DNA from: a virus
Strand: one strand, 5' to 3'
IMG/VR virus record: IMGVR_UViG_3300031658_000065
Span: 1-30,740 of that record
DNA length: 30,740 bases
Shown: positions 13,590 to 22,822 of the stretch, in pieces
Layout: each line of letters begins with the position of its first letter
How positions within the stretch are numbered: position 1 is the stretch's first letter
Notes under the pieces: model-generated
Seen by the model: the letters and a program-made list of their open reading frames with translations, nothing else
Databases searched by the model: none
Told to the model about the DNA's origin: nothing
Position numbers and translations under genes: made by a program

Positions 13590-13619
13590 AATAAAGCCGC
13601 TTATTATAGCGGCTTTATT
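13590..13619. terminator. Shared terminator between converging early and replication operons
   Basis: AATAAAGCCGCT (13590-13601) and AGCGGCTTTATT (13608-13619) form a 12-bp stem with a six-base loop. The minus-strand read continues into a U-rich run (TTTATTTTTT), so it is best suited to stop the leftward replication transcript. It also follows the rightward early operon. Confidence 0.85.
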
Positions 13620-17293: not shown

Positions 17294-17317
17294 AAAAAAG
17301 GGGCGTTAACGCCCCTT
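17294..17317 (-). terminator. Leftward terminator/attenuator between ssDNA-binding protein and polymerase
   Basis: The 20-bp palindrome at 17298-17317 (arms AAGGGGCG and CGCCCCTT around TTAA) is followed on the minus strand by six T (17299-17294). It lies after the ssDNA-binding protein gene and 11 bases before the polymerase start, so it should cut most transcripts there. Confidence 0.82.
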
Positions 17318-17344: not shown

Positions 17345-17866
17345 TTAGAAATCATCGTTATCACTGGCAAGGTCGCCGTAATCTTCAAAATCACTACTAG
17401 GGTCAGAAGAACCACCAAAGCGTTCACCAGCTTTAATGTATTGAACACCATTGAGGCTAGCGTTAACACGTTGGCCGTAAGTGTTATCTTGCAACCATAA
17501 ATTGATTGAAGCACTTATGATGTCGCCCCCTTGCATGTCGCAGGTTTCAATATCAAGTAATTCTTTACGAACATTGTAGATAGGTATAATCTTATTTGAT
17601 GTTGCTTTGATTGTATAGTGTCCGACGTATTCTTCACGACCTGAAACATCACCATCTTTAAGGCATATTTTATCGTCAGGTATTGCCTTGCTTGACTCAG
17701 ATTTCATTGATTCAATGTCAGCTTTAATTTGAGTGATTAACTCAGCGTTTTTCTCTTTATGAAGCATGATAGTAACTTCACGTTTACCATCAGGGCCAAA
17801 CTTGGTATTGGCTTTGAAAACGTGAGGGAATGAACATACAACTTCTTTAGCTACGAATTTACTCAT
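17345..17866 (-). CDS. ssDNA-binding protein (DUF2815, T7 gp2.5-like), copy 1, 173 aa
   Basis: The N-terminus 'VAKEVVCSFPHVFKANTKFGPDG' and the core 'DIISASINLWLQDNTYGQRVNASLNGVQYIK' match the DUF2815 group of OB-fold single-strand binding proteins. The C-terminus is acidic and ends in an aromatic residue ('DFEDYGDLASDNDDF'), as in gp2.5, where this tail contacts polymerase and helicase. It probably coats ssDNA during replication. AGGAAG precedes the ATG. It has its own promoter (17930-17958) and terminator, so it should be expressed more than its neighbours. Confidence 0.87.
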   Translation of the reverse strand: MSKFVAKEVVCSFPHVFKANTKFGPDGKREVTIMLHKEKNAELITQIKADIESMKSESSKAIPDDKICLKDGDVSGREEYVGHYTIKATSNKIIPIYNVRKELLDIETCDMQGGDIISASINLWLQDNTYGQRVNASLNGVQYIKAGERFGGSSDPSSDFEDYGDLASDNDDF

Positions 17867-17959: not shown

Positions 17960-18469
17960 CTAAAATTCACATTCATTTTCATTTTCTTCAAAATCTTCAA
18001 ACGCCGCTTTCGCATCCATATCATTACGGCTAGGTGCTTCAAGCAATTTAACAGCGTGAACATTTGCACGTACTGCTTTACCGTACGAATTGTCTTGAAA
18101 CCAGTAAGATACTTGGGCGAGTACCGTTGCACCTTTAACAATCATATCCGCCGCTTGAGCGTTACTCATGTTATTGTTATCAGCGTCAATACAAGCGACA
18201 GGTTTGCTTGATGTTAGCTTTAATACATAACCGTCGGAGTTAAACGCGAACGACGTTGTATCACCATCATAGAGATTGGTATTCGCGCCATCATAGTTAA
18301 ATGTTGCAGAGAACCCACAGTCATTGGGTATTGATTCCGATAGCGCTTTTTTAGTCACTTTTAAGGTGGGGCTGTTTTTAGCAATGACAATCTCCGCCCC
18401 ATACTTACCGTACATGTTAGGTTGGGTTAAGTGCGGAAAGTTTATTTTACCTTTAATCATGTGTTTCAT
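17960..18469 (-). CDS. ssDNA-binding protein paralogue (DUF2815-like), copy 2, 169 aa
   Basis: The protein shares with copy 1 the block 'SYWFQDNSYGKAVRANVHAVKLLEA' (copy 1: 'NLWLQDNTYGQRVNASLNGVQYI') and a long acidic, aromatic-ended tail ('AFEDFEENENECEF'). The N-terminus 'MIKGKINFPHLTQPNMYGKYGAEIVI' aligns with the first OB-fold strand region. Two such proteins in one 30-kb phage suggests division of labour, for example replication and recombination annealing. The gene is 11 bases downstream of the nuclease gene. Confidence 0.8.
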   Translation of the reverse strand: MKHMIKGKINFPHLTQPNMYGKYGAEIVIAKNSPTLKVTKKALSESIPNDCGFSATFNYDGANTNLYDGDTTSFAFNSDGYVLKLTSSKPVACIDADNNNMSNAQAADMIVKGATVLAQVSYWFQDNSYGKAVRANVHAVKLLEAPSRNDMDAKAAFEDFEENENECEF

Positions 18470-20070: not shown

Positions 20071-20268
20071 ATGATTGATGACATGGCGTTATTACTGACA
20101 GAGTACAATTTTAACAAATCGGAGTTAGCGAGGCGGCTAGGTGTTTCACCGCAAGCCATTGCTAACAGTTATGATAACGGATTTTTCAGTTATTCGCTGG
20201 CAATACAAATTGAAAAACTAACTAATGGTAAATATAAGGCGGTTAACTTATGCAAAAATTCCCTTTAA
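20071..20268 (+). CDS. Cro-like HTH repressor, 65 aa
   Basis: 'NKSELARRLGVSPQAIANSYDNGFF' is a helix-turn-helix of the Cro/YdaS type, followed by 'YSLAIQIEKLTNGKYKAVNLC', the 'A..IE.lT.G...a..l' segment usual in that family. AAGG at 20059-20062 lies eight bases before ATG 20071. The protein probably binds TTGTAATTTACAA at 20011-20023, controlling the divergent promoters including its own. It overlaps the next gene by 19 bases, so repressor and replication initiator are translated together. The target is inferred from context. Confidence 0.8.
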   Translation: MIDDMALLLTEYNFNKSELARRLGVSPQAIANSYDNGFFSYSLAIQIEKLTNGKYKAVNLCKNSL

Positions 20269-22415
20269 ATCCTGACAAATCCCCAGCGTGTTCAGCTTGG
20301 CAGACTTTTGCCGGTAATGTTAGCGGTGAAGGTATGTTTGGTGTAACACCACCATCAGGTTTTTACGTGATAGATGTTGACTCATACAAAGAGGACGGTA
20401 TAAAAGAAAAAATCGAACAGGTTTTAGGCTGTTCGATTAATTGGGAAGAAAGCCATATCCAAACGACTTTAAACGGTGGTACGCACCACGCGTTTATTAT
20501 ACCTGATAACGTGAAACTTATCCAAGGTTCAAACATGATGGGCGTTCAAGGTTTTGATACAAGAGCATCTGGCAGGGGCTATATTGCTTCGGGTGAAGGT
20601 TATAGCGTAATTGATGCTGATGATGTTTGTTCAAGATTTGATGATTTCTTACCAGAGTTACCAAAAGAGGCGTTGGCTAAATTAACAGTTTCACTCGGTA
20701 AAGATATGTTATCTGTTGATAAAACTTTCAGAGCTGCCGAGTCAGTTGTAACTAATTCTGATGGTTCACCTTTGACCAAATCACAAATGATAGCAACGCT
20801 TGAAAACCTACCAAGTGAGATTGGCACTGACAATGATTCATGGGTTGATGTTTGCGCTGGGTTCAAGCGTCAATTGCTTGCGATGGGTGTTAATGAAGAA
20901 CGTGTAAACGCTAAAGATGGTTGGGGTTTTAAAGTGTTGACGCTATGGTCAAAGAAACGTTTTAGCGGCACTGATGCTGAGTTTTCAAAGGTCAATTCTA
21001 GCAATTATAATCGTTGGAAATCTTTCAAACTAAATGATGATGGTAATGCTGGTAAGATAATAACGTTTAAAAGTGTTATTAGTTTGGCTAAAGATAATGG
21101 TGGGTTACCACAATCGCCTGAGGTTGTTAAAGCTACGGGTGAAAAGTTAAAAGCTGAATGTTCATTTATTAATGATTACGTGATGGATGCAAAAACTGGC
21201 GGTTATATAAGACGTGACAACTTAGTTGAATACCGAAAAGACGCGTATAACAACGAACATTTGTTTGAAACACCGTTAAACAGTAAAGGTAACCCACAAA
21301 AGCCATCTGAAATTTCATTGGGCCACACAGAAGTAGTTAGCGACGTGATGTATGCACCATCGTTTGAGCAAGTGTTTACACTAGTTGATGATGGGCGCAA
21401 ATACTTAAACTCATATATTGAACCAAAACATAAAAGCTGTGGTGAAATTGATAGTGAAGAAGTTAAAGCAGCATTGGTGTTAGTGACAAATCACCTTGAA
21501 CACTTGTTAGATGATAAAAAAGAGCGTGAATTGATTCTTTTTTATCTAGCCCACAACATTCAATTCCCCGGTAAAAAACTTCCGTGGGGGATAATTCTAC
21601 AAGGGGCGCAAGGGGATGGTAAGAGTTTTTTCGCGGAGATGATGCGAATGGTAATGGGTAAATCAAATGTTCGTGTGATGAATGCTGACACGTTGCAGAG
21701 TAATTTTTCAGGTTGGGCTGCTGGGCAATGTATGGTTTTCATTGAGGAATTAAAGCTTGATAACTTTAAGAAGTACGAGATTGTTAACAGAATAAAACCT
21801 TATATCTCTAATCCCACGATTGAGTGGGTTAGAAAATATAAAGAGCCGTTAACTTGTCCTAACACTTCAAACTATTTTTGTTTTACCAATTACAAAGATG
21901 CTATCCCGTTAGATGATAATGACCGTCGTTATGCTGTGTTTTTTAGCAAATGGCAGGGTAGTAGTATTGCAAAATGGAATGAAGAAAACCCAAAATACTA
22001 CCCGGAGTTGTACAACAAAATGCGCAAATCGGGCGAAGCGTTATATTGTGCTTTTGCAAATATAACAATTCCTGATTGGTTTTTACAGCTAAATAGAGCG
22101 CCAAAAACTATCGCGCGTCAGGCAATGATTTCATTAAGTCGTTCACCTGCTGTTAAAGATGTCCAAGAAGCGATTGACGATTTAGCTGATAAAGTACTTC
22201 TTGATGATGGTAAAACACTCAATGCAACATTGCTTGGTGTGCAAATAAAGGTGGAAAGACAGGTCGAAGATGATGACACTTTATATGCAAATTTCCCTGA
22301 CCCAGTGAAAGAAGCAATGAAACTTATTAAAGTTATTGAGTCGATGGGGTGGGTTAAATCGGCAAAAAGGCAAAGAGTTGAAGGTAAACTTTGTACGGTT
22401 TACCATAAAATGTAG
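20250..22415 (+). CDS. Primase-polymerase fused to SF3-like helicase, 721 aa
   Basis: N-terminal PrimPol (AEP) domain: motif I 'VIDVDSYK' (D42, D44), motif II 'LNGGTHHAFI' (H79/H80) and motif III 'QGFDTRASGRGYIASG' (D103, R105). The C-terminal half holds Walker A 'GAQGDGKSFF' (about 453-462), Walker B 'VFIEELK' (about 494-500), 'YFCFTNYKDAIPLDDNDRRYAV' with sensor and arginine finger. This is the plan of phage and plasmid replication initiators that both prime and unwind. Its gene is followed immediately by the iteron array, the likely origin. Start ATG 20250, with AAGGCGG before it inside the Cro-like gene. Confidence 0.9.
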   Translation: MQKFPLNPDKSPACSAWQTFAGNVSGEGMFGVTPPSGFYVIDVDSYKEDGIKEKIEQVLGCSINWEESHIQTTLNGGTHHAFIIPDNVKLIQGSNMMGVQGFDTRASGRGYIASGEGYSVIDADDVCSRFDDFLPELPKEALAKLTVSLGKDMLSVDKTFRAAESVVTNSDGSPLTKSQMIATLENLPSEIGTDNDSWVDVCAGFKRQLLAMGVNEERVNAKDGWGFKVLTLWSKKRFSGTDAEFSKVNSSNYNRWKSFKLNDDGNAGKIITFKSVISLAKDNGGLPQSPEVVKATGEKLKAECSFINDYVMDAKTGGYIRRDNLVEYRKDAYNNEHLFETPLNSKGNPQKPSEISLGHTEVVSDVMYAPSFEQVFTLVDDGRKYLNSYIEPKHKSCGEIDSEEVKAALVLVTNHLEHLLDDKKERELILFYLAHNIQFPGKKLPWGIILQGAQGDGKSFFAEMMRMVMGKSNVRVMNADTLQSNFSGWAAGQCMVFIEELKLDNFKKYEIVNRIKPYISNPTIEWVRKYKEPLTCPNTSNYFCFTNYKDAIPLDDNDRRYAVFFSKWQGSSIAKWNEENPKYYPELYNKMRKSGEALYCAFANITIPDWFLQLNRAPKTIARQAMISLSRSPAVKDVQEAIDDLADKVLLDDGKTLNATLLGVQIKVERQVEDDDTLYANFPDPVKEAMKLIKVIESMGWVKSAKRQRVEGKLCTVYHKM

Positions 22416-22455
22416 TTTCAAAAACTTTATCAAAAACCCTGATACACCCTGATAC

Positions 22456-22490
22456 CCTGATACTTTTATTAAAAGTATCAGGTTTTTTTT
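22456..22490 (+). terminator. Terminator built from inverted iterons
   Basis: CCTGATACTTTT (22456-22467) and AAAAGTATCAGG (22471-22482) form a perfect 12-bp stem with loop ATT, then eight T (22483-22490). It should stop transcription 40-75 bases after the PrimPol-helicase gene. Its left arm is the third iteron. Confidence 0.88.
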
Positions 22491-22750
22491 ACTTACCCTG
22501 ATACAAATCGCCTACCCTGATACTCTACCCTGATACACCTTTTTCTTTTTAAAATCAATAACTTAACCCCTACTGTTCAGGGTGTATCAGGGTTTTTAAT
22601 GAAATATATATAAAGTAGTAGAATAGGGATATAGAGATTTAGGATATAGCGGTTTTATTGTATAGGGTTTTTAAATACTTTTTGCAAAAGGGTGAACACC
22701 CTGATACTTTAGCTATAAAGCTTTATATATCAAAGGTTTAACCCTGATAC

Positions 22751-22778
22751 CATACCCTGATACTAATATCAGGGTATG
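22751..22778. repeat. Perfect 12-bp inverted repeat at the right edge of the iterons
   Basis: CATACCCTGATA (22751-22762) and TATCAGGGTATG (22767-22778) are exact inverses around CTAA. It combines the last direct iteron with an inverted one, and lies 16 bases before the late promoter, so it may be a cruciform, a protein site or an operator. Confidence 0.75.
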
Positions 22779-22793
22779 CAAACTGAAAACACG

Positions 22794-22822
22794 TTTACAT
22801 CATTACCTATTAAGTGTATTAT
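22794..22822 (+). promoter_or_regulatory. Rightward late promoter
   Basis: TTTACA (22794-22799) and TATTAT (22817-22822) are 17 bases apart, each one base from consensus. The start should be near 22829, 24 bases before the first gene of the lysis and packaging block. Nearby iterons could let replication proteins affect it. Confidence 0.7.

Follow-up and report, generated by a model that had tools for sequence, protein, structure and literature searches.

Within the window, by which the whole 30,740-bp stretch of viral DNA analysed here is meant, the segment 22456-22490 is likely to be an intrinsic (Rho-independent) terminator of the primase-helicase transcript, and it appears to be made from an inverted pair of origin repeats. 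The assignment draws on the observed anatomy and statistical strength of the hairpin, on its position 3' of the replication gene and on the recurrence of the arrangement with different repeats in other phages. An intrinsic terminator acts via an RNA hairpin that causes RNA to be released at the T tract, and no protein is required. The features of the locus are as follows.

20071..20268, + strand: small Cro/CI-like HTH protein of 65 aa, just upstream of the primase gene
20250..22415, + strand: primase-polymerase/SF3 helicase (DUF5906) of 721 aa, likely initiator; its stop is 41 nt before the hairpin
22436..22536, + strand: left repeat cluster, direct ACCCTGATAC copies at 22436, 22446, 22454, 22495, 22514 and 22527
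22456..22482, + strand: putative terminator stem-loop, 12 bp, loop ATT, with the CCTGATAC core in both arms plus a TTTT/AAAA extension
22456-22467: left arm, CCTGATACTTTT
22468-22470: loop, 3 nt
22471-22482: right arm, AAAAGTATCAGG
22475-22484: inverted repeat copy within the left cluster (hairpin arm)
22483..22490, + strand: T8 tract, predicted RNA 3' end, abutting the stem exactly
22584..22593, - strand: exact inverted repeat copy, part of a 27-nt inverted repeat
22698..22775, + strand: right repeat cluster, direct copies at 22698, 22741 and 22754 and an inverted copy with one mismatch at 22766-22775
22751..22778, no strand assigned: second short-loop inverted pair, 12 bp, perfect, 4-nt loop, -17.5 kcal/mol, without a T tract
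22794..22822, + strand: promoter-like site of the late operon, TTTACA-17-TATTAT, 10/12 consensus match

The primase-helicase matches phrog_1156 (5.9e-47) and the Pfam family DUF5906 (2.8e-19), and an alignment-profile search of the PDB matched its helicase part to the NrS-1 primase (1.5e-22). The Prim-Pol domain match, at 18.1 bits against a Pfam cut-off of 22.8, lies below threshold, and full-length homologues carry a primase/polymerase annotation. The gap 22416-22813 separates this gene from a rightward late operon that encodes endolysin, the small and large terminase subunits, portal, head morphogenesis, scaffold and major head proteins. The hairpin is situated between the replication gene and the lysis, packaging and head genes, in agreement with the first-pass annotation. 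Because promoter-like sites overall are no more numerous than in shuffles, the site at 22794-22822 is weak evidence for a late promoter. On the - strand, the adjacent genes 17345-17866 and 17960-18469 both match the gp2.5-like single-strand DNA binding/annealing family.

The perfect 12-bp stem and U8 tail claimed in the first-pass annotation are present to the base, with T8 at 22483-22490. The outer 8 of the 12 base pairs are the repeat core, formed by CCTGATAC at 22456-22463 and its inverted copy at 22475-22482, and the inner four (TTTT/AAAA) are unique to the hairpin 22456-22482. The inverted copy matches at all 8 nt of the core and departs at one position from the 10-nt consensus ACCCTGATAC. 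The hairpin and T8 tract lie 41-75 nt 3' of the primase-helicase stop and combine the hallmarks of an intrinsic terminator, namely a stable G+C-containing stem, a short loop and an abutting T tract on the transcribed strand; with just 4 G-C pairs among 12, the stem is A+T-rich for this class. The predicted RNA fold of the hairpin reaches -14.4 kcal/mol in its context (z -4.7) and that of the element alone -14.0 kcal/mol (z -6.8).

A d'Aubenton-Carafa-type discriminant (d) was used to score candidate terminators; its values are best taken as relative. The element 22456-22490 scores 29.0, the highest value on the + strand and the second highest among eight in the window. The opposite strand of the hairpin scores -53, suggesting that the terminator is unidirectional, as expected for one serving the primase gene. 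When the whole 398-nt gap was shuffled, d rose above zero in 2 of 3000 trials. With the repeats fixed and only the spacers shuffled, a terminator with a repeat at its stem base appeared in 22 of 3000 trials and d of at least 29 in 0 of 3000. A 7-mer scan of the window found no free repeat copy with an A run before it on its own strand. Other strong intrinsic terminators of the window are found on the - strand at 17300-17315 (d 39.6) and 13592-13617 (d 18.4). The pair 22527-22539/22581-22593 was considered as a second terminator (41-nt loop, T5) and rejected, a hand estimate with the same formula being well below zero. Rfam and tRNA searches of the window returned no match.

The repeat from which the stem is built occurs 12 times in 22436-22775 as ACCCTGATAC with at most one mismatch and nowhere else in the window; the mean expectation is 0.97 copies, and 12 were reached in 0 of 100 shuffles. 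Short repeats at one locus that adjoins a replication gene are typical of iteron-type origins, and the iterons named in the first-pass annotation hold up as a set of iteron-like repeats directly 3' of the replication gene. We infer that the array is the replication origin and is bound by the phage initiator, either the primase-helicase or the small HTH protein, the latter being the alternative candidate for a repeat-binding protein. An inverted repeat of 27 nt (22426-22452/22577-22603, 93% complementary) surrounds the left cluster and an A+T-rich stretch, and it recalls the large origin stem-loop of pRN1. The second short-loop pair at 22751-22778 is an internal control for an inverted pair without Ts. 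It stops 15 bp short of the promoter-like site, and binding to its repeats could influence late transcription. Searches for the repeat in viral and bacterial collections gave scattered matches judged to be mostly chance or coding repeats, and DNA-level searches of phage records gave no useful match.

Primase loci from IMG/VR and named phages were reduced to 101 non-redundant downstream regions, in which repeats were called by exact 7-8-mers with thresholds of our own choosing. Significant phage-specific repeats follow the primase gene in 64 of the 101 loci, with very different sequences and in both orientations. Of the 101 loci, 38 have a sense terminator (d>0) no more than 110 nt from the primase stop and 7 an antisense one; 33 loci have the sense terminator only and 2 the antisense only (p 4e-8). 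Among the 64 repeat-bearing loci, a sense terminator is present within 110 nt of the stop in 26 and at 150-400 nt in 1. This bias toward the sense strand and the vicinity of the stop suggests that ending the primase transcript there is a common need. At 150-400 nt past the stop, an antisense-strand terminator is seen in 9 of the 64 repeat-bearing loci, against the single sense one. Most of the 26 near-stop sense terminators have a GC-rich stem that bears no relation to the repeats (e.g. LP.1, 1.017.O, SS2019XI, L009, L244 and L250). The gene order exonuclease (DUF2800), small gene, primase and a gap of about 500 nt is found in Vibrio phages LP.1 and 1.017.O, and a gap also follows the primase in Pseudomonas phage SS2019XI; in these relatives, which share the gene order, the terminator in that position is an ordinary one not built of repeats.

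In about 10 of the 26 near-stop sense terminators, one of which (L231) is doubtful, the stem is the phage's own repeat, defined as at least half of the stem lying in 7-mers that occur two or more times elsewhere in the same gap. When stems were set against the gaps of other phages, the same definition held for 5% of pairs, and 0 of 20,000 permutations reached 10. The repeat-built terminator described by the first-pass annotation is found again in other phages with different repeats: the stem repeat is CCTGATAC in the present phage, TCCCAACT in L220, GGGCGCAA in L315, L319 and L330, GGGGCGCA in L229, GGTGCGCA in L316 and GGTCGCAA in L356. On a tree of 70 primases, the own-repeat-stem label needs about 6 changes, of which at least 5 are forced by well-supported branches; the borderline loci L231, L283, L287, L344, L349 and L357 were coded as ambiguous. 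The own-repeat stem appears to have been gained or lost several times, and this quick tree, which has some long branches, does not separate gains from losses. For repeat-built hairpins alone, the asymmetry between strands is weak (6 sense-only, 2 antisense-only and 3 both). In several GCGCAA-type phages some free repeat copies are preceded by As, and because the repeat itself is often so preceded, some of their T tracts may belong to the usual flanks of the repeat.

Many relatives carry, close to the primase stop, an inverted repeat pair that lacks a T tract. In L223, the nearest relative found (49% primase identity), the inverted repeat hairpin has a longer loop and no T tract, and the scan detected no terminator, indicating that the feature is not kept in the closest kin. 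The first adjacent repeat pair is inverted in 33 of 56 cases, compared with 128 of 322 later pairs (p 0.008, an optimistic value as the loci are related). The pairs without a T tract in relatives and at 22751-22778 suggest that inverted pairs belong to the origin itself and probably predate the T tract, which would have been added in some lineages.

These comparisons lead to the following model. Close to its primase-proximal edge, the origin would have held an inverted pair of its repeats that gained a stem extension and the T8 tract. The resulting terminator would insulate most of the origin and the late operon from transcription of the replication gene, and the late operon would be transcribed from its own promoter-like site. 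Both stem arms are copies of the array repeat, from which we infer the second use of the element, and the stem repeats are probably still usable as duplex DNA sites. The overlap would most likely be a matter of economy: origins of the family often have inverted pairs by the gene end, and a T tract may convert one of them into a terminator. Because relatives have ordinary terminators and inverted pairs without T tracts, neither function needs the overlap, and sequence economy can account for it without a sensor. The conserved need would appear to be termination alone.

The hairpin might instead serve replication only, as a palindromic initiator site or a single-strand priming hairpin, with a T tract that is fortuitous or belongs to an AT-rich unwinding region. 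The ssi sites of RSF1010, for example, are single-strand hairpins for priming. Such a role is consistent with the widespread inverted pairs without a T tract near primase stops, with the second pair at 22751-22778, with the more frequent inversion of the first adjacent pair and with the origin of pRN1, which is a stem-loop 3' of the gene (PMC4234260). However, the d>0 hairpins are biased in strand and position, and the T8 tract abuts the stem exactly in an element whose strength was equalled in 0 of 3000 shuffles, and we consider a purely replicative role unlikely. A different possibility is that the array is not an origin and that its repeats are operators through which a phage regulator, such as the small HTH protein, acts on the late promoter, the terminator being built of operators. 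In favour are the HTH gene, which precedes the primase gene, and the short distance from the last inverted pair to the promoter-like site at 22794. Against it, 64 of 101 loci have an array behind the primase-helicase gene, and the genes that come next vary. Moreover, pRN1 and SaPI have established origins in the equivalent position, and one has been proposed there for SCCmec (PMC4234260, PMC7581432); operators are a distinctly improbable explanation.

The element could also act as a sensor of the origin state, in which an initiator on the stem repeats blocks or assists termination and origin occupancy tunes read-through into the late genes. The stem is built from repeats of the array and differs between phages as their repeats do, the late genes follow it in the same orientation, and it is established that DNA-bound proteins can block RNA polymerase (PMC10310618). 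However, the terminators of relatives with the same gene order are unrelated to their repeats, which argues that tuning by the initiator is not a conserved need, and the late operon has its own promoter-like site. Termination, furthermore, works via the RNA hairpin and needs no protein, and we regard a sensor as very unlikely. If it were true, origin occupancy would set the expression of genes beyond the terminator. Extended to a broad group of PrimPol-helicase phages, this reading would join the repeated recruitment of origin repeats into terminators of initiator genes to a change of termination by the bound initiator, a combination that is likewise very unlikely.

For a terminator built from origin repeats, the open-licence literature yielded no account of iterons forming a terminator. 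By analogy, the nearest counterpart would be the terminators formed by inverted DNA uptake sequences in Neisseria, which act in a Rho-independent manner (PMC2397512). In both cases a DNA-recognition repeat (a putative one here) arranged as a close inverted pair makes a terminator, with one sequence used by two systems; however, uptake sequences are scattered over the genome, whereas in the present phage the repeat is phage-specific and forms a putative replication array at a single locus. In the pRN1 family, ORF904 is a PrimPol-SF3 protein with the origin stem-loop 3' of its gene (PMC4234260). The present locus resembles it in an SF3-type helicase with a putative PrimPol part (its domain match here is below the cut-off), in a small gene upstream (a repressor gene in pRN1, a Cro/CI-like HTH gene here), and in a terminator hairpin directly past the stop with a structured origin just beyond, both putative in the present phage. 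Unlike here, the pRN1 terminator is separate from the origin element and deletable, and no repeats were found to form it; in the present phage the two are not distinct, the stem consisting of array repeats.

SaPI and SCCmec have iteron origins downstream of D5/SF3-type helicase genes (PMC7581432), and they share with the present phage short repeats immediately 3' of an initiator helicase gene; however, PMC7581432 mentions no terminator and the helicases belong to other families. In the SGI1 oriV, iterons lie immediately 3' of rep and a Rho-independent terminator is predicted downstream of rep (PMC7433901). As here, the terminator and iterons fall within the same short gap after the gene, but the terminator and the 17-bp iterons of SGI1 are described as separate features (PMC7433901). 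The primase-polymerase of phage NrS-1, the nearest solved relative of the helicase part of the present protein, needs an 8-nt recognition sequence to prime (PMC8718748, PMC7102993); in contrast to the present array, the NrS-1 genome has 2 copies of the site, and neither an array nor a terminator is described.

The locus suggests that one short DNA word serves two machines, an initiator that reads it as duplex DNA and RNA polymerase that responds to it as an RNA hairpin, and that this dual use may have arisen several times with different words. Because the stem seems to keep pace with the repeat of each phage, it is a natural place to ask whether the start of replication and the end of transcription are coupled. 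A repeat array with a terminator directly after a primase gene may also be a practical marker of the origin in uncultured phages. Finally, the post-primase gaps of L306, L307, L315, L356, L366 and L225 share a layout of repeat orientations despite their different repeats: one forward copy, two to three reversed, a spacer, one to two forward and then reversed again.
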